The position numbers and the translations under genes were made by a program. Below, in pieces: positions 22,382-32,148 of a DNA stretch of 35,922 nt. The DNA is from an uncultured Oscillospiraceae bacterium (GTDB lineage Bacteria; Bacillota; Clostridia; Oscillospirales; Oscillospiraceae): positions 1-35,922 of the forward strand of contig CANQVL010000030.1 of the NCBI GenBank assembly GCA_947627285.1. The letters are read 5' to 3'. Each line of letters opens with the position of its first letter. The first letter of the stretch is position 1. Below the pieces are notes generated by a model. That model did no database searches. It was not told the origin of the DNA and was given only the letters and a program-made list of their open reading frames with translations.

Positions 22382-22385
22382 AATT

Positions 22386-22622
22386 AATTCCAAAAGGGCT
22401 TTGCACTTTTGGAATTAAGGGAAACGGTGCGGAAGACCTTCGGGAAAAGCCTGCGGGCTTTTCTCGGAGGTCTTCCTGCTGTTTTGCTGCGCGCACGCCC
22501 CGTAGGGGCGCACGCTTGCAAAACATAAGGTGATTTTTCCGACGCGCATGTCGTCGGAAAAATATTTGATTTGGAGTTTTTATTCGCGTCGGCGGAAAAA
22601 TATTTTATTTGGAGTTTTTATT
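22386..22622 (+). repeat. Structured intergenic repeat, copy A
   Basis: In order: hairpin 1 at 22386-22416 (stem AATTCCAAAAG); linker GGTGCG; hairpin 2 at 22431-22476 with TGCG loop at 22452-22455; core helix with outer arms GTTTTGC (22481-22487) and GCAAAAC (22518-22524); tail hairpin 22534-22562 opening TTTTTCCG; and the tail ATTTGATTTGGAGTTTTTA. The tail is duplicated (22552-22584 and 22587-22622), and the second copy runs into the stop codon of the M15D peptidase gene. No gene lies here. Confidence 0.8.
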
Positions 22623-25173
22623 CTCCGAGTACGTTTTCGGGGATTTCCCAGGAGGTGTAGTCGGAGTAGCCGGTTTCGTCGAAGGTGTAGGTGAAGCCGT
22701 TGACGGAGTAGGTGCCGGAGGTCAGGTATTCGCCGGTGGAGAGGCGGTAGCGCCAGCCGGTGGTGTCGGCGATCCAGCCGGCGCGGGTGACGCCCTCTGG
22801 ACGGTAAGGGAGCTTTACGGAGTTGCGCAGCTCGTTGTCCTGGAAGTGCCACCACTCGCTGACGAGGGTGCCGAGCTCTGAGCCAGTCATTATCTCCGCC
22901 AGGAGCTTTGCCTCGTCGTTGTTGAAGCTCAGGATGGAGTTCCAGCTCAGATCGTGCATGGCAGTCTGCATCACCAGCTCCTCGCCGGTCTCCGGGTCCT
23001 CCAGCGTTATATCCACCGCCACGCCCTGGTTGTGGGTGGAGCCGGACCTTGCCAAAAACGAGTTGAGCTTATATCGCCCGTTGGTCATGACGGAGGAGTA
23101 GGTCGGGCGGGGCTCGTGAGGTGCTTCCGGCTCCTGGGGGGTCTCGGGCTCGTCCGGCTGCGCGGCTTTGGTTTTTTCCGTCTCCTCCGGGGCTCCGGCG
23201 TCCTCGGGGGAGTCGGGCGTCTCGGGGGCTTCGCCCTCCGGGACCTCGGGCTCGGGCGGGAAGAGCTCCTCCACCCAGTCCGTCCACATCTCGCCGTCCA
23301 TCAGGTCGTACTCGTAGAGGGGTATCTCGTTTTCAAGGAGGCTCTCGGCGGTGTCGTAGAGCATCCTTGTGGCGTTGTAGGGGCGGAAGGCGTCGTAAAT
23401 CTTCAGCCTGTAGCCCAGGTCGCGGGCCTTTTCCGCGGACTGGGCGATTTTTTTCGCCGTGGGGTAAAGGAGGGGCACCAGGAACTCGGTGGGTGTCTCC
23501 ACCTCAGCCTGGGTCAGGGTATAGGGGGAGTCCTCGGTGTAGATCTCCGCCAGCGCCGCTGCCGTCTCCTCGTCAAGCTCCTCGGAATCCGACGAGGTCC
23601 GGGGAAGGGCGGGGGGCTCCACCGGGAGGGGCTCGCCGTTGGCGTCAACGAATCTGCCGTCCACCACCGTGGGGATCTCGGGAATCTGCGGCCCGGTCCC
23701 CGGGTCGGGGCCTTCGGCGCCCTCGGGATTTTCGGGATTCTCGGGATTTTCAGGGTTTTCGGGATTTTCGGTATCCTCAATTTCTTCGGGGTCTTGGGTA
23801 TCCTCGGGGTTCACTCCGCCGGCGCCGCCCTCGGGGTCACCGGTATCGACCGCGGCGGATTTCCAGGCGAGTCCGGGGGCGTAATTTGACGCGACCTCCT
23901 CGTAGCCGGTTATGACTGTGCCGGTGACGGTGGGGATACCGTAGCCGTGGACCATGTAGATGGCGTCGTAGCTGTTTTTTATGTCGTAGGAGCAGATGTC
24001 GCCCATGTAGTCGGGCAGATTTATGAGGCAGTAGGTGGAATCTATGTACCCGCGCCCGCCGTCAAAGTAGACAAGGAACATTCCGTTCTCCTCCGCCGCC
24101 ACGCAGAAGGCCCGGGAGGCGGGGGCGGTGCCGATCTCCTCCGTCCCGGAGGGGTCGGCGTATATGGGCAGGTCCATGAGGGGCCAGACGGTGGCGTAAA
24201 TTACGGTGGGGCCGGTGGTGAAGCTCACCTCGTCGGGGGTGGCGGAATACTCGCTTCCCGGCAGGCTGTGCTCGCCGGAGGCGGTGACCCGGTAGGTGTG
24301 GTCAGTGTACGCCTTCAGGGGGCCAACGGTGAGGCTCAGGGGCATATCGTCGGTGTAATGCCCCAGGGAGCGCCAGGAGCCGTCGCCGTCCAGCTCCCAG
24401 AGGTCGTAATATTCGCCGCGCGTCTCGTTCCAGGAGAGGGTGTAGTAGTTGTTGCCCAAATCGGCGATCTCCATTATGAGCAGAGTGCCGCGCAGGTCCT
24501 CGCCGCTGACCGAGGCGGAGGCGGATTTGTCGGTGGAGAACTCCACCTGGGTGTTTTCCAGTCCCGCACGGAGGGTGAAGCGGCGGCTCTGGTCCTTTCT
24601 CGGCATGGGGACGTCGGTTTTAAAGGATATGAGGGTGAAGTTGTCCCGGACCGTCCTGAGGAGCGCGCCGTTTTCGTCGTAAACGGAGACTGTCTCCCCC
24701 TCCACCCCCTGCCAGGAGAGAAGGAGGGTGTCGGCGTCGGGGTCGACGGTGGTGGTGAGGGTGCCCAGGTCCGGCAGGGCCGCCGGCAGAGCCGCCTCAA
24801 GGGGCTTCTCGCAGGGGCGGTAGTCCTCCCTTTTGGGCGTCTTGTATTTTTTCCGCGAGGTCACGCGGACGGTGGCGCCGGGGGCGTCCTCCGGCAGGAC
24901 GCAGGAGACGCCGGTATACGTGCCGCTCCAGACCACCTCGCCGCCCCGAAGGAGCTCCACGGTGTAGTCGTCAACGTTCTCACCCGGCTCCCAAAAGAGG
25001 GTCAGCGTCCCGTCGGCGTCCTCGTGGAGGCGGGGCGCGTCCTGGGGAAGCTCATTTTTGGCGAGGGCGTAGGGCCTTTGGCACTGAAAATAGTACAGCC
25101 CAACGCCCGCCGCCGCCAAAAGGGGCAGGATTATCGCCAGCGCGATGAGTGCTTTTTTCAAGGTTGGATTCAT
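22618..25173 (-). CDS. Membrane-anchored VanX-like (M15D) D-Ala-D-Ala dipeptidase with FN3-like, SH3-like and wall-binding parts
   Basis: 851 residues from the ATG at 25173, which overlaps the upstream stop by four bases. A GTG at 25188 is the alternative. Membrane anchor at about 6-25. FN3-like beta domains cover roughly 45-330, with an SH3-like region near 335-385. A Glu/Pro/Asn linker with repeated NPE lies near 468-483. The M15D peptidase has YDAFRPYNATRMLYD near 591, zinc motif SGSTHNQGVAVDI near 708 and EWWHF near 770. It is split by a Pro/Glu-rich insert at about 638-689. A choline-binding-like repeat (GWRYRLSTGEYL) ends the protein. It probably trims peptidoglycan peptides outside the cell, unlike cytoplasmic VanX. 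It is the last gene of the envelope operon. Confidence 0.8.
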   Translation of the reverse strand: MNPTLKKALIALAIILPLLAAAGVGLYYFQCQRPYALAKNELPQDAPRLHEDADGTLTLFWEPGENVDDYTVELLRGGEVVWSGTYTGVSCVLPEDAPGATVRVTSRKKYKTPKREDYRPCEKPLEAALPAALPDLGTLTTTVDPDADTLLLSWQGVEGETVSVYDENGALLRTVRDNFTLISFKTDVPMPRKDQSRRFTLRAGLENTQVEFSTDKSASASVSGEDLRGTLLIMEIADLGNNYYTLSWNETRGEYYDLWELDGDGSWRSLGHYTDDMPLSLTVGPLKAYTDHTYRVTASGEHSLPGSEYSATPDEVSFTTGPTVIYATVWPLMDLPIYADPSGTEEIGTAPASRAFCVAAEENGMFLVYFDGGRGYIDSTYCLINLPDYMGDICSYDIKNSYDAIYMVHGYGIPTVTGTVITGYEEVASNYAPGLAWKSAAVDTGDPEGGAGGVNPEDTQDPEEIEDTENPENPENPENPENPEGAEGPDPGTGPQIPEIPTVVDGRFVDANGEPLPVEPPALPRTSSDSEELDEETAAALAEIYTEDSPYTLTQAEVETPTEFLVPLLYPTAKKIAQSAEKARDLGYRLKIYDAFRPYNATRMLYDTAESLLENEIPLYEYDLMDGEMWTDWVEELFPPEPEVPEGEAPETPDSPEDAGAPEETEKTKAAQPDEPETPQEPEAPHEPRPTYSSVMTNGRYKLNSFLARSGSTHNQGVAVDITLEDPETGEELVMQTAMHDLSWNSILSFNNDEAKLLAEIMTGSELGTLVSEWWHFQDNELRNSVKLPYRPEGVTRAGWIADTTGWRYRLSTGEYLTSGTYSVNGFTYTFDETGYSDYTSWEIPENVLGE

Positions 25174-26510
25174 CTCCAGTATTTCCACGGCGTTTTGTCG
25201 CTCGCCATGCGGTAAAAATTGTAGGAGTAGTTGCCCTTTACCCGGTAGGACATCTCAAGCTCCGGGTCGTACATATAGCAGGCGTCGCCCTCCCAGATCT
25301 CCACCCAGCCGTGGGGCACTGGGTTGGAGTTGTTGACCTTCCCGGCGATGAGCACGGCGTCATAGCCCAGCTGACGCGCCAGGGAGTAGAACACGGCGGC
25401 GTAGCAGTAGCAGTTTCCGCGCTTGGTGGTGAACATGGTGATGGCCTCCTTGTTCGCCCAGCCTGTTTCGCCCACCTCGTAGTAGTTGCGGCGCAGGTAT
25501 TTGAAGCTGTCGCGGGTGAAGTTGTACGCCGCGTGGAGCTTCTCCTCCCGCGTCATGGTGTCGTCCGTTATGGCGGCGAGGGTGTCCTTCACGTAGCCGT
25601 CAAGCTCGGCGCTGCCGCTGGAGAATTTGCCGTCGGGCCCAAATTGGAGACCGCCGAAGCTGCCGTTTACGATGGGCTTTCCGTCCTCGCCTATGTAATA
25701 GAGCTCACCGTCCTGAAAATACGGTCCCGGCTCCTTCAATATGGCGGACATATCCGCCTCGGTCCAGCTGCCGTCCTCGGCGTGGCTGTGGGGTATGGAC
25801 GCCTCCATGATCTCATAATACGCCCAATCGGACGCGGAAACGTCCGAAAAAAGGGAGAAGATATGTCCCGCGAGATAATTTTTGTCCACCGTCCTCCCCA
25901 AAAAGCGGTTTATGAAGGTCACCGCCTCGGCGCGGCTGATGGGGTCCTCCGGCAGAAAGCTGCCGTCGGCGCCCTGTACCCAGCCCCTGCGGGTGGCGAG
26001 GGTTATCTCGTTATAATATTCGTGGTCCGTGGGCACGTCGTCAAAGCTGACGGCGTTTGACACAACGGGGGTGTTGGGCAGAAGCCGCACGCCCATGGCG
26101 ACGAACTCCGCCCGCGTCATGGGCTCGCTCCCGCGAAATTCCCCGTCCACCGTCTCCATGGCTCCGGCGGCGGTGAGAAGGTTGGCGGCGGGCGAGTACC
26201 ACCCGTCCTCGGGCACATCGGGAAGGGAGCTCTCCGGCTCGGGGGGATCCTCCAAAAGCTCCCAGTACATATACGCCGCCTCAGCGCGGGTAAGCTCCCT
26301 TTCGATGCCGAAGACGCCGTTCTCATCGCCCCGGACCAGGGGCTCGTGGACGCTTTCCAGGTCCCTGACCTTCAGCTCTATGGGCTTTCCGGTGCTTTCG
26401 GTGTCCTCAGCGTCGCCGGCGTCCTCCGTCTCCGCAAAGGCTGATATTGGAAAGGCGGCGAGGCACATGGCAAGCGCCAGGGCAAAGGCGGTCTTACGCC
26501 TCATAAGCAT
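25170..26510 (-). CDS. SLH-domain protein with a transglutaminase-like domain
   Basis: 446 residues. Signal peptide about 1-26 (ALALAMCLAAFPISAFA). Three SLH modules cover about 58-215, each with a TRAEA/SRAEAVTF-type helix and a DVP turn, and should anchor the protein to the cell wall. A middle linker (about 260-300) contains GELYYIGEDGKPIVNG, which resembles a wall-binding repeat. The C-terminal transglutaminase-like fold has a catalytic triad: Cys in KRGNCYCYAAV near 363, His in PHGWVEI near 398 and Asp in YMYDPELE near 412. Such domains act as proteases or cross-linkers at the surface. It starts within the end of the lipoprotein gene (17-base overlap) with a GAGGTGG site. Confidence 0.85.
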   Translation of the reverse strand: MLMRRKTAFALALAMCLAAFPISAFAETEDAGDAEDTESTGKPIELKVRDLESVHEPLVRGDENGVFGIERELTRAEAAYMYWELLEDPPEPESSLPDVPEDGWYSPAANLLTAAGAMETVDGEFRGSEPMTRAEFVAMGVRLLPNTPVVSNAVSFDDVPTDHEYYNEITLATRRGWVQGADGSFLPEDPISRAEAVTFINRFLGRTVDKNYLAGHIFSLFSDVSASDWAYYEIMEASIPHSHAEDGSWTEADMSAILKEPGPYFQDGELYYIGEDGKPIVNGSFGGLQFGPDGKFSSGSAELDGYVKDTLAAITDDTMTREEKLHAAYNFTRDSFKYLRRNYYEVGETGWANKEAITMFTTKRGNCYCYAAVFYSLARQLGYDAVLIAGKVNNSNPVPHGWVEIWEGDACYMYDPELEMSYRVKGNYSYNFYRMASDKTPWKYWR

Positions 26511-27129
26511 CGTAGACCACCTCTTTCCCGCTCTCGTCCCTGTACGTGGCGACTATGAAGCCGTCATAATAGAAGTTTCCGTCCTCCCCCGCGCCCAGGC
26601 AGCTGGGGGCGTAATCGGAGCTCACGGGCTCGCCCAGGACGGCGACCAGCCTGCTTATGTCCTGATCCACATACGTCAGCGCCAAAGCTACCGCCTCGGC
26701 GGGGGTGAGCTTCGGCTCCTCGGTTTTCGGGGGCTCCTCCTGCTTCGGAGGGTCCTCGGTTTTGGGGGGCTCGGTGTTCTCATTCTGCTCGGGCGTCTCG
26801 CCGTTCCCCTCGCCGCTTTGCTCAGGGGGAACGGTGTCAACCTCCTGACCGTCCGGGGCGTTTTCGGTGTTTTCACCGGGCTCGGTTTCCTCGCCGTTTT
26901 GGGGGGCGGCGACATCCTCTCCGTTTTGCTCCGGGGGCTGAGGGTCCTCGACGCTGTCGGGGGCGTTGTTATTCTCCGCGCCGCCGTTTGCCGGCGGAAG
27001 CTGCGCCAAATCGCCGACAGAGGGGCCGTCGTCCTTCTCCCCGTCGCCCACGGAGACGCTGACATCGCCGCAGGAGACGAGCCCCAGCGCCAAGATTCCG
27101 GTAAGGATAAGAGCAATCAGTTTTTTCAT
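26494..27129 (-). CDS. Lipoprotein with a long acidic Pro/Glu/Asn-rich region
   Basis: 211 residues. Lipobox LVSC with the acylated Cys at 20. Residues about 35-140 are low complexity (repeated PPEQNGE, EPPKTE and similar), probably a wall-spanning stalk. The C-terminal 70 residues form a small domain containing LGEPVSSDYAPSCLGAGEDG and YYDGFIVATYRDESG, which I do not recognise. It follows the AlgX-like gene by 44 bases and overlaps the SLH gene by 17, so it belongs to the envelope operon. Confidence 0.75.
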   Translation of the reverse strand: MKKLIALILTGILALGLVSCGDVSVSVGDGEKDDGPSVGDLAQLPPANGGAENNNAPDSVEDPQPPEQNGEDVAAPQNGEETEPGENTENAPDGQEVDTVPPEQSGEGNGETPEQNENTEPPKTEDPPKQEEPPKTEEPKLTPAEAVALALTYVDQDISRLVAVLGEPVSSDYAPSCLGAGEDGNFYYDGFIVATYRDESGKEVVYDAYEA

Positions 27130-27146
27130 CTTTCTATACCTCGCTT

Positions 27147-27174
27147 ATACTAATATCTATTTAAATATTAGTAT
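27147..27174 (-). other. AT-rich inverted repeat before the lipoprotein gene
   Basis: A perfect 10-base stem ATACTAATAT/ATATTAGTAT with an eight-base loop lies between the AlgX-like stop and the lipoprotein ATG. There is no T-run. It could be an operator, a processing hairpin or nothing. Confidence 0.4.
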
Positions 27175-28490
27175 TATATGCCCTCAAATGAAGTGAGCGT
27201 GCCTCCCACGTAAAGCGCCGCCGTCCAGGGTCCGTTTGCCAGGGGCACCAGCGCCGAAAAGCCGTCGGGTGTCAGCGCCGCCTCAAATGTCCCGGCACTG
27301 TTTTGTATGTACACGGGGCTGTCAACGTCCGCGCCCGCGGGGAGCGTGCCCGTTATGCCGATATAGCCCTCCAGCCCTGTCTCGCCAGTGGCGAGGCGGA
27401 TCGTGCCGGAGGTCTGCGCGGGCAGCTCCAAATCCCTCTCCGGGGCGGGGAGGACCGGAGGGTACCGGGAGAGATTTACCAGGTTCCGCTCCACCAGCTC
27501 CACAACGAGAAAATCCGCGTCCACGCCAGTGAGGTCGTATTGGGCGCTGCGGGAAAAGCGCGCCCAGGCGAAGGAGTCCGCCATGTAGGGGTAAAGGTTG
27601 TTGCCGAAGGAGTCACGGTACATGAAGAGCCTGCCCTCGCCGGAGCCCTCGGCGGTGATGGTTATGCTGTCGGGCCTTGTGCCTCCGGCGCCGTAGGTCA
27701 GCTCAATGGCGGGGGTGTACACCAGGTCGGTCTCGCTGTCCTCCCAGGCGGGGTAGACCATCTCGTAGAGGTCGCCGGTGTGGGGCGCGGGGGTGAAGTT
27801 GCCCTCAAAGTACCTGCTGGGTCTGCCCAGGGCGCCGCCGATAACGTCCGCCGCCAGCGCCGCGCCTCGGCTCGTCCAGTGGGAGTCGTGGGCGAAGTAA
27901 AGCGTCTCGTCCAGCGCGTTGAAGGCGGTGTGGAGGTTGGCGTAGGGGGTGCCGGAGGCGTCCAGGAGGCTGTAAAGCTCCGCCGCCGCGTACCTTTCGG
28001 CTCTCACGCCGGTGTTGGGCATGAACTCGCCGTAGACGGAGTTTTTGTTGGGGGCGCAGGTGAAAAGGAAGCGTATGCCGCGGGATTCGCAGTATTCGTT
28101 CATAAGCGACAGGTTTTTCGCCGCGGCGAAATATTCCCTCTCAGTGAGCCCTCCGGCGCCGGTGAAGTTGTCCAGGGTGGAGCCGTAAAAGAGCCAGCCG
28201 TTTTTGCCGATTATCACATCGTCCTCGCCCGTCGCGCGAAAGAGCCCGGCGGATATTTTGCGCCCGGCGGTGATGAGCTCCTGCCGGAGGTAGAACCTGT
28301 CGTCAACGTAATTTTTAATGTCGGAGAGAATTGCCGTGTTTGGCGTTCCCTCCGGGGTGGTGAGCTCCGGGCGGTCCGCCAGGACCTCGTTCGCCCCCGC
28401 CTCGCCGGGGCCGAATATGATAAGTCCCACCGTTGGTATAAGGCACATGATAAATACGGCGACCATGAAAACTATAGATGTCTTTTTCAT
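27174..28490 (-). CDS. AlgX/AlgJ-like SGNH-type protein, partner of the MBOAT acyltransferase
   Basis: 438 residues. N-terminal membrane anchor at about 5-27. The AlgX/DHHW pattern is visible: GKNGWLFYGSTLDNF near 95, FLFTCAPNKNSVYGEFMP near 145, DSHWT near 201 (Asp-His pair) and MYRDSFGNNLYPYM near 291 with the candidate nucleophile serine. The last 100 residues form a beta-rich domain. In alginate and other polysaccharide systems such proteins move acetyl groups from the MBOAT to the polymer outside the membrane. It follows the MBOAT gene by nine bases with a GAGGTGA site. The acceptor here is unknown. Confidence 0.83.
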   Translation of the reverse strand: MKKTSIVFMVAVFIMCLIPTVGLIIFGPGEAGANEVLADRPELTTPEGTPNTAILSDIKNYVDDRFYLRQELITAGRKISAGLFRATGEDDVIIGKNGWLFYGSTLDNFTGAGGLTEREYFAAAKNLSLMNEYCESRGIRFLFTCAPNKNSVYGEFMPNTGVRAERYAAAELYSLLDASGTPYANLHTAFNALDETLYFAHDSHWTSRGAALAADVIGGALGRPSRYFEGNFTPAPHTGDLYEMVYPAWEDSETDLVYTPAIELTYGAGGTRPDSITITAEGSGEGRLFMYRDSFGNNLYPYMADSFAWARFSRSAQYDLTGVDADFLVVELVERNLVNLSRYPPVLPAPERDLELPAQTSGTIRLATGETGLEGYIGITGTLPAGADVDSPVYIQNSAGTFEAALTPDGFSALVPLANGPWTAALYVGGTLTSFEGI

Positions 28491-28499
28491 ACCGTCACC

Positions 28500-29921
28500 T
28501 CAAAACCGCGCGTAGATGAAGGGCGAGAAACCGCCCTGGGCAAGCTCCATGACGCACAGGACAAAAAGCGCCGCGTAGCCCAAATATGACGCCGCCTGGG
28601 CCCATTTGCCCCGCAGTCTTTGGGAGACGCGCCGGCAAATCGGAGTGGACAGCGCGGCGCCCAGAAGGAGGAGCGTGACGCTCCTGGCGTTGAGGATACT
28701 GAAAAGCGCCGCGGTGCCGGCGGTGGTGAAGCGGAAGCCCGCGAACATGGCGCCCATCACCGCAAAGCCCTGCGCCGGAGTCTCCGCCCTGAACATCACA
28801 AAGCCGATGACCGCCGCGAGGAGGGTGTAGACGTGCCCGAAGATCCTCCACCCCGCTTTTTTCTGACGGGAGCGTAGATCGCAAAGCCCCTCCAGCGCCG
28901 ACAGTACGCCGTGCCACAGCCCCCAGATGAGGAATGTGAGCCCGAAGCCGTGCCAAACTCCGCACAGGAGGAATACCGCCAGCTTGTTTGCCGCCGTCCG
29001 CCATTTGCTGCATCTGCTGCCGCCCAGGGGGATGTACACGTAGTCCCTGAGCCAGCTTGAGAGGGATATGTGCCACCGCCGCCAAAATTCCGTGACCGAG
29101 GCGGATATGTAGGGGTAGTCGAAGTTTTCCGACGTGGCAAATCCGAACATCTCGCCAAGGCCGATGGCCATGTCGCTGTATCCGGCGAAGTCGAAAAAGA
29201 GCTGTATGGCGTAGGCGACCGCCCCGAGCCAGGCAAGGCGTATGTCCAGGTCGCCCCTTGAGAGGGCGAAGACCGCGTCCGCCGCGCCACCGGCGGCTCC
29301 GGCGATGACGAGCTTTTTGGCAAGCCCGCGAATGAGGCGCTTCATGCCATTGGCGGCGCTTGACACGTCAAGCTCGCGGCTGTCTATCTGGGGCGCGAAA
29401 TCGGAAAACCTTGTTATCGGTCCGCTGGCAAGCTGCGGGAAGAAGGAGACGTAAAGGAGGAACCGCCAAAAGCTTTTCGTCCCCGCCTTGGGGTCCTTGT
29501 AGGAGTCCGCCAGATACGAGACGCACTTGAACACGAAAAACGACACGCCCAGGGGCGCTGCCAGTCTCACCGGCGAGCCTTGGGCAAAGAGGAACAGCAT
29601 GGCGCTCTCCCCGCCCGTGACGGTCACAGCCACCCTCTCCAGCGTCTTGAAAAGCGCCAGGGTGAGCACGTTGAAAACAACGCCCGACGTGAGAGCCACC
29701 CGACGGCGGCGCTTCCCCTCCCCCAGGGCGAGCCCGAAAAGGAAGGTAACGCCGGCGACGGCGAGGAGCACCAGCAGGTCAAATATCCTCCCGAAGGCGC
29801 AAAACACCAGTCCCGCGGCGGTGAGGAGCCCGTTTCTGAAGCCGCGCCTGGGCACGGCGGCGTAGAGTATGAATATCAGCGGGAAAAAGCAAAAGAGGAA
29901 AAACGCCGAATCAATATTCAC
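28500..29921 (-). CDS. MBOAT family O-acyltransferase (AlgI/DltB-like)
   Basis: 473 residues from a GTG at 29921, chosen because GGAGG lies eight bases upstream. The longer ATG form from 29978 has no ribosome site. It is a multispanning membrane protein. Family segments are AAPLGVSFFVFKCVSYLADSY, FFPQLASGPITRFSDF, FDFAGYSDMAIGLGEMFGF, FWRRWHISLSSWLRDYVYIPLGG and the catalytic histidine in GVWHGFG (about 325). It passes an acyl group, probably acetyl, across the membrane for the AlgX-like partner. DltB is less likely because no other dlt gene is present. It is the first gene of the envelope operon. Confidence 0.92.
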   Translation of the reverse strand: MNIDSAFFLFCFFPLIFILYAAVPRRGFRNGLLTAAGLVFCAFGRIFDLLVLLAVAGVTFLFGLALGEGKRRRRVALTSGVVFNVLTLALFKTLERVAVTVTGGESAMLFLFAQGSPVRLAAPLGVSFFVFKCVSYLADSYKDPKAGTKSFWRFLLYVSFFPQLASGPITRFSDFAPQIDSRELDVSSAANGMKRLIRGLAKKLVIAGAAGGAADAVFALSRGDLDIRLAWLGAVAYAIQLFFDFAGYSDMAIGLGEMFGFATSENFDYPYISASVTEFWRRWHISLSSWLRDYVYIPLGGSRCSKWRTAANKLAVFLLCGVWHGFGLTFLIWGLWHGVLSALEGLCDLRSRQKKAGWRIFGHVYTLLAAVIGFVMFRAETPAQGFAVMGAMFAGFRFTTAGTAALFSILNARSVTLLLLGAALSTPICRRVSQRLRGKWAQAASYLGYAALFVLCVMELAQGGFSPFIYARF

Positions 29922-29986
29922 GCCCGCCGCCTCCGTTTCTCTTTCTGTCTCTATATGGCTTTGCCACGGCAAAGTCATACACGGTA

Positions 29987-30015
29987 ATTATCGCTCATTT
30001 TACGAAAAAATGCAA
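29987..30015 (-). promoter_or_regulatory. Promoter of the envelope operon
   Basis: On the minus strand: -35 TTGCAT at 30015-30010, 17-base spacer, -10 GATAAT at 29992-29987. No terminator is obvious inside the five-gene operon. Confidence 0.7.
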
Positions 30016-30055
30016 CAGTTTTTTGCCGTATTCCATCGGGTTCGACTGAATAAGC

Positions 30056-30090
30056 ATAAAAAAGCCGGAGAAACGTAAGCTTCTCCGGCC
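30056..30090 (-). terminator. Terminator after the HIT gene
   Basis: A nine-base stem GCCGGAGAA/TTCTCCGGC with an eight-base loop, followed on the minus strand by TTTTTT. Confidence 0.9.
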
Positions 30091-30117
30091 CGGGACTTCC
30101 ATATATTACATATTATA

Positions 30118-30537
30118 TTAAAGATTTTCCTTGATTTTCTCGATCATTTCCGCGTATTCCCCGTCCGTCAGGAGCTTCTCGCCCGGGTTCATGGCGAAGA
30201 CGCCGCCCCACTCGAAGCCGTCCTTATATTTCGGCACCAGGTGCATATGCAGGTGGCAGCCGGTGTCGCCGTAAGCGCCGTAGTTGAGCTTGTCCGGGTG
30301 GAAGGCGGCGTGGATGGCTTTGGCAGCCCGGTCCACGTCGGCGAAAAAGGCGTTGCGCTCCTCGTCAGATATGTTAACGATCTCGCTCACGTGGTCCTTG
30401 TACGCCACAATGCACCTGCCCGGGTGGGACTGCTCCTTGAAAAGTATGAGCTGAGATACGGTGAGGTCGCAGATCTTGATCCCGAAGGCCGCCAGTGGCG
30501 CACCCCCGACGCAGTAGCCGCAGTTTTGGTCCTTCAT
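30118..30537 (-). CDS. HIT family nucleotide-binding protein
   Basis: 139 residues. The histidine triad HLHMHL lies near 94-99, followed by VPKY, and CGYCVGG at the N-terminus is a typical zinc-binding pair. The family hydrolyses or transfers dinucleoside and nucleoside phosphoramidate substrates in the cytoplasm. It has an AAGGGAG site. It is separated from both neighbours by clear gaps and ends at a terminator. Confidence 0.92.
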   Translation of the reverse strand: MKDQNCGYCVGGAPLAAFGIKICDLTVSQLILFKEQSHPGRCIVAYKDHVSEIVNISDEERNAFFADVDRAAKAIHAAFHPDKLNYGAYGDTGCHLHMHLVPKYKDGFEWGGVFAMNPGEKLLTDGEYAEMIEKIKENL

Positions 30538-30576
30538 TATAATTGCTCCCTTCCTGTTTTATTCAGGCTCAGCGCC

Positions 30577-30873
30577 TTATTTCCCGCGCTTTTCCGGTAT
30601 GCTCCGGTTCACGCGCGTGACGACGATTATCTCATGCCCGCACTCCGGGCAGTGGCACCCGCGCCGGATGCCCCGAAGGAGCGCCCCCGGCTCCACCTGT
30701 CCGCCGCACTTGGGGCACCTGAGACGCAGCGCGCCCCAAATAAAATACCCCGCAAGAGCTATTGCCGCGGCGATGAAGCACCACGGGCGGAAAACTCCCG
30801 CCACCAGCATCACCGCAAAGGCCAGCATGAGCACGTATTCGATTATGATGTCAAGAAGCTTCACCACACGCAC
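30577..30873 (-). CDS. Small membrane protein with a zinc ribbon
   Basis: 98 residues if started at the GTG at 30873 (MRVVKLLDIIIEYVLML), which has GGGGAG ten bases upstream. The same frame stays open to 31161 but crosses repeat copy B, so the extra residues are unlikely. Two membrane segments at about 8-27 and 30-46 are followed by CPKCGGQVEPGALLRGIRRGCHCPECG, two CxxC knuckles, and a basic tail. Function is unknown. Confidence 0.65.
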   Translation of the reverse strand: MRVVKLLDIIIEYVLMLAFAVMLVAGVFRPWCFIAAAIALAGYFIWGALRLRCPKCGGQVEPGALLRGIRRGCHCPECGHEIIVVTRVNRSIPEKRGK

Positions 30874-30889
30874 TGTGCCGACTCTCCCC

Positions 30890-31075
30890 TCAAAAAGGGC
30901 TATGCCCTTTTTGAAAAATAGGAACGTGCGGGAAATATTTATGAATTTTGCGAAATTCATAAATATTTCCCTGCCGTCGCGCTGCGCGCACCGCCGAAGG
31001 CGGCACACTTGCGCGACAAAAGGTGATTTTTCCGACGTACATGCCGCCGGAAAAATACTTGATTTAAGGCTTTTA
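30890..31075 (+). repeat. Structured intergenic repeat, copy B
   Basis: Hairpin 1 at 30890-30914 (stem TCAAAAAGGGC, loop TAT); linker CGTGCG; hairpin 2 at 30931-30970 with a perfect 18-base stem and TGCG loop at 30949-30952; core helix with outer arms GTCGCGC (30976-30982) and GCGCGAC (31011-31017); tail hairpin 31027-31055 opening TTTTTCCG; and tail ACTTGATTTAAGGC. It fills most of the gap between the divergent zinc-ribbon and GNAT genes. Confidence 0.8.
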
Positions 31076-31244
31076 CAGCCCTGCAAAATAACCCCTACAG
31101 AGATTACACGGATATTATAAAGCTTTGTAGTTGGCAAGTCAACAAATATTTCTTCCGTCACGCCATGCCTTTTTGCCTTTTCGCTCTTCCATTTGCCGCG
31201 TTTTAGCTGTATACTGTCCTCAAAGACAAAAAAGGGGTATTAAA

Positions 31245-31808
31245 ATGGCAGATTCACAGATAACCCTCCGCCTTGCCCGTCCGGAGGACGCCCGCGCGCT
31301 TCTGGACATATATTCCTGGTACGTGGAGAACACCACCGTCACCTTCGAGTATGAGGTCCCCTCCGTCGAGGAATTCGCCCGGCGCATAACCGACACCCTT
31401 CGGAGCTACCCGTATCTGGTCGCCCTGCGCGGCGGGGAGATCGTGGGCTACGCCTACGCCGGCAGGTTCCGGGAGCGCGCCGCCTACGACTGGTGCTGTG
31501 AGGCCAGCGTCTACGTGCGCCGGGATATGCACCGTCTGGGCATAGGCCGGCTCCTTTACCAGGAGCTTGAGCGGATACTCCGCCTCCAGAATATAGCCAG
31601 CATCGACGCCTGCATCTCCCACCCCAACAAGGACAGCATAAAATTCCACTCCTCCCTGGATTTCGAGCGCGTCGCCCGCTTCTCCAAATGCGCCTGGAAA
31701 ATGGGCCGCTGGGTGGACGTGATATGGATGCAAAAGATCCTCCGCGACGATGATACGGAGCCGGAGCCATTTATTCCGTTTTCGCAAAAGGGCGATGCCC
31801 TTTTGTGA
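31245..31808 (+). CDS. GNAT N-acetyltransferase, phosphinothricin-acetyltransferase type
   Basis: 187 residues from the ATG at 31245, which has AAGGGGT upstream. Pattern typical of the Pat/Bar-like subgroup: LRLARPEDARALLDIYSWYVENTTVTFEYEVPS, then YPYLVALRGGEIVGYAYAGRFRERAAYDW, then ASVYVRRDMHRLGIGRLLY (acetyl-CoA pyrophosphate loop) and HPNKDSIKFHSSLDFE. It acetylates a small amine, but the real substrate is unknown. The last ten codons and the stop lie inside hairpin 1 of repeat copy C, so the repeat supplies the C-terminus. Confidence 0.88.
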   Translation: MADSQITLRLARPEDARALLDIYSWYVENTTVTFEYEVPSVEEFARRITDTLRSYPYLVALRGGEIVGYAYAGRFRERAAYDWCCEASVYVRRDMHRLGIGRLLYQELERILRLQNIASIDACISHPNKDSIKFHSSLDFERVARFSKCAWKMGRWVDVIWMQKILRDDDTEPEPFIPFSQKGDALL

Positions 31809-32148
31809 AAACGGGGAGGACGTGCGAAAAAATTTCTGGAAATGTCTGCGGACATTTCCAGAAATTTTTTCTGCTGTTTTGCTGCGCGCACGCCCTCGTC
31901 GTCGCGGAAGTCGCTTAACCTCGCCCCCTCGTCCTCGCTCGAGCCGCTTTACTTCGGGCTCCCTATGGTCGCCCTCAGGCGCAGGCTCGGCTCGTCCTCT
32001 CCCCAACAGGCTTTCGCCTGTCGGGGTCCCCCTATGGCAGGGCTCAGGCGCTGACTTCGCTCCTCCTCTCCCCACGCAATCATGATTGCGTGGGGACCCC
32101 CATATGGGCGCACGCTTGCAAAACATAAGGTGATTTTTCCGGCGGCAT
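31776..32148 (+). repeat. Structured intergenic repeat, copy C, expanded and cut
   Basis: Hairpin 1 at 31776-31814 has an 18-base stem with one G-U pair. Linker CGTGCG follows. Hairpin 2 at 31826-31871 has a perfect 21-base stem and TGCG loop at 31847-31850. Core arms GTTTTGC are at 31876-31882 and GCAAAAC at 32118-32124. Between the arms, a roughly 210-base insert replaces the few bases of the other copies. The tail hairpin starts (TTTTTCCGGCG) but its right arm is missing after about 32148, where the mobile element begins. Confidence 0.75.
31961..32098 (+). repeat. Two tandem 69-base units, each with its own hairpin
   Basis: Units start at CCCTATGG (31961 and 32030). They share CTCAGGCGC, a GCTC-TCCTCTCCCC stretch and a closing GGGG-CCC. 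The hairpin part differs: the first has an imperfect ACAGGC/GCCTGT stem, the second a perfect 26-base palindrome at 32070-32095 with centre ATCATGAT. They lie inside the core of repeat copy C. Confidence 0.75.

Follow-up and report, generated by a model that had tools for sequence, protein, structure and literature searches.

IS1272, a member of the IS1182 family of insertion sequences (ISs), targets stem-loops and terminators, and its published events delete or replace the stem-loop and leave no duplication (PMC5678879, PMC4923244); duplication of the stem-loop is drawn as an alternative pathway in PMC5678879. Here we describe a multi-hairpin repeat present as three copies, A, B and C, in a 35,922-nt stretch of DNA (the window; contig CANQVL010000030.1, assembly GCA_947627285.1) from an uncultured Oscillospiraceae bacterium, whose genome is designated G000 below and compared throughout with G005, a sister genome of the same genus. 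Comparison of sequences indicates that the repeat is very probably a gene-less miniature inverted-repeat transposable element (MITE), mobilised in trans by IS1182-type transposases and landing at hairpins near gene ends. This interpretation rests on the high copy number, on ends that match, on duplications in the flanks and on a single clear empty site. The initial annotation had not recognised the family and had suggested a mobile or regulatory element; no Rfam family was found, but the element is of a known kind, the IS-derived MITEs, and its mobile character is borne out by more than 100 copies with terminal inverted repeats, by the duplications and the empty site, and by a matching autonomous IS.

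IS1272 and TnSha1 share with the element short terminal inverted repeats and stem-loop targets that are often terminators, and the parent ISs belong to the DDE transposase family. Unlike the IS1182-family ISs, the window element carries no transposase gene, and no open reading frame (ORF) of at least 80 aa lies wholly within copy A, B or C. Among the repeats treated in the review PMC10969869, where the term IS1182 does not occur, QMITE, BOX, RUP and SPRITE are likewise short, non-coding, intergenic and of high copy number, with terminal repeats and stable stem-loop transcripts; the element differs from them in its multi-module interior and its hypervariable yet nearly perfectly paired arms. 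The REPIN/REP sequences (PMC3116915) resemble it as palindromic intergenic repeats at high copy. Neither an IS1182-derived MITE nor this repeat is named among the literature matches listed, a search with subscription journals and ISfinder outside its scope. REPs are moved by a Y1 (RAYT) enzyme, unlike the present element, which has DDE-type ends and a target duplication.

Reading the window confirmed three copies on the same (plus) strand with the module order first noted, namely hairpin 1, a linker with GTGCG at its end, hairpin 2, core and tail hairpin (Table 1), although hairpin 1 of copy A begins at 22384 and not at 22386. Hairpin 2 closes on TGCG in all three copies, and the outer arms of the core read GTTTTGC/GCAAAAC in copies A and C and GTCGCGC/GCGCGAC in copy B, both as claimed. 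The tail hairpin is complete in A and B, but copy C has the opening only, since it diverges past TTTTTCCG and the closing arm CGGAAAAA does not follow. The tail motif is near-invariant, as had been said: GGTGATTTTTCCG occurs exactly three times in the window, and allowing up to 2 mismatches gives 5 matches against 1.3 expected. At gathering thresholds, Rfam matched two tRNAs only in the whole window, leaving copies A to C and the intron families unmatched, and at a relaxed threshold with copy B alone the best match had E = 0.081 and 20.7 bits against the 53 needed.

Further copies were found with a covariance model of core and tail, built from 27 copies, which gave 127 in G000 and 117 in G005 (E <= 1e-6, best 150 candidates scored in each) and matched 96 of 296 genomes (E <= 0.001, best 14 candidates scored per genome). 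A 15-nt tail motif allowing up to one mismatch was found 112 times in G000, 87 times in G005 and no more than 6 times in each of 59 other relatives; the idea taken from this motif, that the element is confined to two genomes, was wrong in view of the 96 genomes matched by the model. Among the matches listed by an exact-pattern scan, the record titles were nearly all Oscillospiraceae and included rabbit-gut ('Lapin') metagenome-assembled genomes (MAGs), Pseudoflavonifractor gallinarum DSM 107456, Lawsonibacter and Dysosmobacter. The P. gallinarum record is that of a strain and not a MAG, and its core and tail hairpin are recognisable by eye while the other hairpins are different, which argues against a MAG artefact. 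The common form of the element is about 150-210 bp long.

The ends of the element were best seen in relatives, whose intact copies are about 200 bp long with short inverted repeats at the ends (CAGNYTGTCRAAAA...). Conservation across 170 copies fades about 19 nt past the tail, and intact right ends reach GAGTTTTTTGACAGNCTG or a second form, GGGGTTTGTCAACAGTCTG. The left end, CAGNYTGTC..., is the outer arm of hairpin 1, so that the element ends are inverted repeats. GAGTTTTTTGACAGNCTG with up to one mismatch was found in 19 of 34 genomes, and the reversed-pattern control had 0 among the matches listed; single matches to the end pattern at L318, L319 and L335 were set aside as chance and not elements. 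An identical hairpin often stands on both outer sides of the element. Among the 12 relatives' copies in which both ends were recognised (11 of the 23 loci had no left end by the pattern used), 9 scored at least 14, against 0 of 218 shuffled pairings. The duplicated units are palindromes, in which direct and inverted repeats are hard to separate, and both orientations were called. A flanking duplication was seen in 11 of 151 copies from G000 and G005, against 1 of 749 shuffled pairings. The 151 derive from 126 + 117 model matches passed on for parsing, one G000 match having been dropped for an overlap on the opposite strand. Sequence stretches were retrieved for part of these, giving 184 parsed elements (97 in G000 and 87 in G005); 26 without a recognised hairpin 2 or tail left 158, and 7 more without hairpin 1 left 151.

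Empty sites were surveyed in 44 flank-matched pairs from G000 and G005, where 19 pairs differing by more than 70 nt were inspected and 2 of the 19 had no tail in G005. One of the two is a clear empty site: the copy occupying G000 C2:20163-20256 is missing from G005, and there is a duplication of 10 bp, GTGAGGTTAT. The second corresponds to window copy B; G005 lacks the element here too, but the junction is untidy.

The same ends were found on autonomous elements. One locus found with the end pattern, L336, carries a transposase fragment that matches the IS1182 model NF033551 (NCBIfam) with E = 2.2e-22, below the curated cut-off, and PF13751 above the cut-off of that model. NF033551 matches were found in 15 of the 45 genomes; G000 has 3, of which 2 exceed the cut-off, and an intact copy is among them. 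Ten IS1182 loci were examined for ends, and 5 of them (L349-L353), complete IS1182-family ISs in G000 and four same-genus relatives whose transposases each score above 270 bits, the NF033551 cut-off, terminate in CAGTYTGTC... and are flanked on either side by one and the same palindrome. L349, in G000, runs from CAGTCTGTCGACAAAC to GTTTGTCTACAGTCTG between two copies of AACCACTCGTTAAACGAGTGGTT, and its ends differ from the type-2 MITE right end at 1 and 2 positions in 16 nt. Both ends of L351 are CAGTCTGTCAAAAAAC, which over 16 nt equals the reverse complement of a type-1 MITE right end (GTTTTTTGACAGACTG). In L352 and L353 one end is CAGTCTGTCAAAAAAC and the other its one-change equivalent, and the two ends of L350 are CAGTTTGTCAAAAAA. 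At the other 5 of the 10 loci no flanking palindromes were seen. L363 and L354, found in G000 and a same-order relative, were not counted as support as their ends differ (GGGGCTGTGAAAA), nor were L348, L364 and L372, which have no matching ends. The assignment to IS1182 rests on ends, targets and duplications, and is probably correct.

A different enzyme could also be envisioned as the mover, either a group IIC intron reverse transcriptase or a Y1/HUH transposase. Group IIC introns have terminator-adjacent targets and a GTGCG motif, similar to the element, and the substrates of HUH enzymes have multiple hairpins, as it does. Neither, to our knowledge, would be expected to show terminal inverted repeats or target duplications, and the intron idea was dropped after both features had been found. 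The ends of the element occur on IS1182 elements, and Rfam gave no intron match at the gathering threshold, genes for reverse transcriptases and Y1 enzymes not having been searched for, which together make another mover highly improbable.

With IS1182-type mobilisation, a pathway can be put forth in which the transposase would cut the MITE ends in trans and the MITE would be joined at an extruded hairpin, often near the 3' end of a gene, so that a copy of the hairpin would flank it on each side. Hairpin 1 holds the left terminal repeat folded on itself and has the form of a bidirectional terminator, and insertion may in this way preserve termination. After insertion the terminal repeats would decay, as in the window, where they are degenerate in all three copies, while the hairpins would remain paired. 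The arms are apparently kept matched both by DNA template switching from one arm to the other and by exchange of hairpin 2 and core modules among the copies; selection for a function of the hairpins, as terminators or otherwise, probably assists. A terminator role of hairpin 1 is plausible from its form. That hairpin 1 is instead the host's own terminator was rejected, since intact copies hold the left terminal repeat in hairpin 1 and have a separate hairpin outside it.

The copies lie at gene ends. A co-directional stop codon falls at -60..+40 of hairpin 1 in 85 of 132 copies, with positions peaking at -20..+20 (open frames of at least 150 codons, a count that includes spurious frames from GC-rich DNA), and a convergent stop lies near the right end in 66 of the 132, placing the copies between gene ends. 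This location, together with the A-run/GC stem/T-run form of hairpin 1 and the terminator-like sites that a scan flagged in copies A and C at hairpin 2 and in copies A and B at the tail, would suit an account in which selection for bidirectional termination alone keeps hairpins 1 and 2 paired, with no special DNA process. We consider that account rather unlikely.

The arms of hairpins 1 and 2 are unrelated between copies and are nearly perfectly paired within them. The 131 distinct sequences of hairpin 1 and 126 of hairpin 2 are 97.9% and 98.1% Watson-Crick, values that are somewhat favourable in that the hairpin finder penalises mismatches, and pairing is perfect in 113 of 151 and 119 of 158 copies, respectively. 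For arms of fixed length (82 distinct hairpins 1 and 116 distinct hairpins 2) the values are 96.9% and 97.4%, and when right arms were dealt to other copies pairing fell to 55.8% and 50.1%, with maxima of 60.2% and 55.9% over 500 deals. The near-invariance of the TGCG loop is partly built in, as the hairpin 2 finder requires a T[GA][CT]G loop; the core and tail alignments were made without this finder.

Such pairing invites the reading that the element is a structured RNA family, regulatory or in 3' untranslated regions, with stems maintained through selection acting on the transcript and with a merely incidental spread. The structured fold is real: native single-strand folding gives z = -9.8, -7.1 and -7.4 for A, B and C against dinucleotide shuffles, with shuffles as stable as the native fold in 0/200, 0/200 and 0/100 cases. 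The covariation proposed from three copies was largely upheld in the 27-copy alignment of core and tail, where four of five measures exceeded all 500 shuffles, among them paired cells (93.1% vs 85.4% in shuffles) and double-changed cells (55 vs 17.6), but the fifth, the number of further pair types, fell below (10 vs 12.2). An RNA family would also be in keeping with the frequent position of copies just past co-directional stop codons, with one model matching core and tail across genera, where they were recognised by eye as well, and with C(UGCG)G loops in 113 of the 158 copies. Those 113 have C just 5' of the loop and the other 45 have T, and the UNCG-type tetraloop named in the initial annotation does not hold for copy B, whose U(UGCG)A is not the canonical C(UNCG)G.

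The kind of change points elsewhere. Each change that keeps a standard pair in the 27-copy alignment is two-sided, with zero one-sided wobble cells. Between 36 orthologous copies of G000 and G005, with 95.8% flank identity, replacement was called at 16 of 36 sites for hairpin 2 and at 15 of 33 for hairpin 1, the term meaning an ungapped left-arm identity below 75% and so including length changes in at least 4 hairpin-1 and at least 1 hairpin-2 pairs. In same-lineage ortholog hairpins 604 pairs are unchanged, 34 have a double Watson-Crick change, 9 a single change and 1 another kind, where 54 single changes and about 0.4 random paired doubles would be expected, and for 19 of the 34 doubles a wobble-pair route is impossible, so that a non-pairing intermediate would be required. 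Symmetric multi-base changes occur between orthologs (e.g. TTTTC/GAAAA to TTGCC/GGCAA), and one ortholog pair, L105/L177, has its loop inverted (TCC/GGA). The doubles that require a non-pairing intermediate and the symmetric multi-base changes both count against termination alone. PMC8794818 and PMC8604942 give arm homogenisation and spacer inversion as marks of template switching, and the element resembles the hairpins described there in one-event homogenisation of arms, multi-base compensatory changes and spacer inversion; it differs in that those cases are RNA genes and yeast coding DNA, whereas here the process would act on a bacterial mobile element and be mixed with exchange between copies.

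Mismatches give no consistent strand. Tallied over related copies, the ratio of G-T to A-C is 35:13 in hairpin 2, 12:11 in hairpin 1, 7:36 in the core and 1:130 in the tail, where the A-C count is mostly one shared mismatch, which 124 of 165 copies retain on the plus strand. This asymmetry does not indicate one RNA strand: the excess in hairpin 2 would favour a transcribed RNA and the retained tail mismatch would not. Frequent hairpin replacement between sister genomes, the one loop inversion, which is unexpected under RNA selection, and the shorter relatives L320 and L324, which have no hairpin 2 or core, add to the case against an RNA family, which we regard as improbable. A regulatory RNA under selection for its structure, among the possibilities first raised, was not demonstrated: the pairing is real, yet the manner and pace at which the hairpins change (whole-hairpin replacement, double changes that often have no wobble intermediate, the loop inversion) agree with a process acting on DNA no less well than with selection on an RNA. 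DNA-level correction of the arms by template switching, with exchange between copies, fits these findings.

Several observations weigh against the interpretation of a MITE moved by IS1182-type transposases and the arm correction joined to it. The whole stem-loop is duplicated here, unlike in the published mode of IS1272, which deletes it without duplication. Flank repeats are visible in just the 11 of 151 copies of G000 and G005, and neither flank repeats nor a target duplication can be seen at window copies A, B and C. The target and duplication of the one clear empty site, GTGAGGTTAT, is non-palindromic, and the left end of the inserted copy, whose right end is intact, is not of the CTGTC type. 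With convergent stops near 66 of 132 copies, the gene-end position is not one-sided. Reading the 5' and 3' ends of the ISs revealed no interior shared with the MITE, the ends alone being common. No IS1182 match at E <= 1e-10 was found in G005, with its 117 copies. Repeated ISs are often missing from draft genomes, which for G005 is no proof. Among G000-G027, an IS1182 match occurs in 10 of 16 MITE-rich genomes (at least 11 core and tail model matches per genome) and in 3 of the 12 others, a loose coincidence that leaves 6 of the 16 MITE-rich same-genus genomes without a match. As to the arms, doubles outnumber singles by 15 to 8 at a left-arm identity of at least 85% and are outnumbered 3 to 7 at 90% or more; since the excess shrinks with a stricter call of lineage, part of it may be whole-hairpin exchange between copies. 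The excess of G-T over A-C in hairpin 2 (35 vs 13) could be a hint of selection on plus-strand RNA. Finally, hairpin 1 was not flagged by the terminator scan in any of the three window copies, a result that tells against termination alone as well.

A further idea, tentative and on the whole unlikely, is that core and tail (...GCGCGC...ACACTTG...CCGACGTACATGCCGYCGG...) are more than passive filler of the MITE and form a conserved, selected DNA or RNA device, recombined with varied ends and hairpins across Oscillospiraceae genera. The hairpins would then be a naturally replicated record of template switches, each arm being rewritten as a whole and its sequence not mattering for function. The behaviour of the arms is the unusual part of the element and worth following. 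If the MITE interpretation is true, the mover, the targeting rule and the anatomy of a widespread intergenic repeat family of the Oscillospiraceae become known, and the family escapes mislabelling as a new regulatory RNA. The case is also a warning that mobile palindromes can give strong covariation statistics without any RNA function. More than 100 copies per genome, with a sister genome at about 96% flank identity, would then offer a natural test of hairpin evolution, in which selection through wobble intermediates can be contrasted with one-step copying of arm from arm.

Table 1. Modules of the three window copies (window coordinates)
Copy	Module	Position	Strand	Detail
A	Hairpin 1	22384..22418	+	A-run / GGGC-type stem / T-run
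A	Linker	22427..22432	+	GTGCGG
A	Hairpin 2	22431..22476	+	loop TGCG
A	Core	22480..22525	+	outer arms TGTTTTGC 22480-22487 and GCAAAACA 22518-22525; inner hairpin 22495-22511
A	Tail hairpin	22533..22563	+	ATTTTTCCGACG / CGTCGGAAAAAT
A	Right end	22564..22585	+	degenerate (ATTTGATTTGGAGTTTTTATTC)
B	Hairpin 1	30890..30914	+	
B	Linker	30925..30930	+	CGTGCG
B	Hairpin 2	30930..30971	+	perfect 19 bp, loop TGCG
B	Core	30975..31018	+	outer arms CGTCGCGC / GCGCGACA; inner hairpin between
B	Tail hairpin	31026..31056	+	
B	Right end	31057..31083	+	degenerate; GGCTTTTACAGCCCTG similar to GAGTTTTTTGACAGNCTG
C	Hairpin 1	31776..31814	+	18 pairs including one G-T
C	Hairpin 2	31826..31871	+	perfect 21 bp, loop TGCG
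C	Core, long form	31875..32125	+	outer arms TGTTTTGC 31875-31882 and GCAAAACA 32118-32125
C	Tail opening	32129..32141	+	GGTGATTTTTCCG, without closing arm

The long-form core of copy C contains an extra arm of about 210 nt (31895-32103) with its own hairpins, between the outer arms. Copy C is outside the 158 parsed copies, 28 of which (22 in G000 and 6 in G005) have this arm; in the 16 long-form copies displayed it stands between the core arms and has variable hairpins of its own, e.g. CCCCACGCAATCATGATTGCGTGGGG. Upstream of copy C, a forward ORF of 225 aa (31131-31808), which by eye resembles a GNAT acetyltransferase, has its 3' end overlapped by hairpin 1, from which its stop codon comes. 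The right part of the copy A tail is duplicated in tandem, 22550-22585 being 94% identical to 22588-22623.

Other loci showed variations on this anatomy. Four of them (L320, L324, L330 and L344) are shorter derivatives that have the ends and parts of hairpin 1 or the tail, without hairpin 2 and the core, and one on the minus strand of G000 (L079, tail at 1546) has about 400 nt between hairpin 2 and the tail, including a second, unrelated hairpin-rich stretch. By eye, a TGCG-loop hairpin follows the tail and does not precede the core in L247, L253, L261, L283, L250 and L274, all from other genera, as if the modules had been rearranged. A separate recurring hairpin, GGCTTGAAAGG...CCTTTCAATGCC, lies at gene ends in L007, L013, L080, L081, L125 and L209, where it either replaces hairpin 1 or stands beside it.

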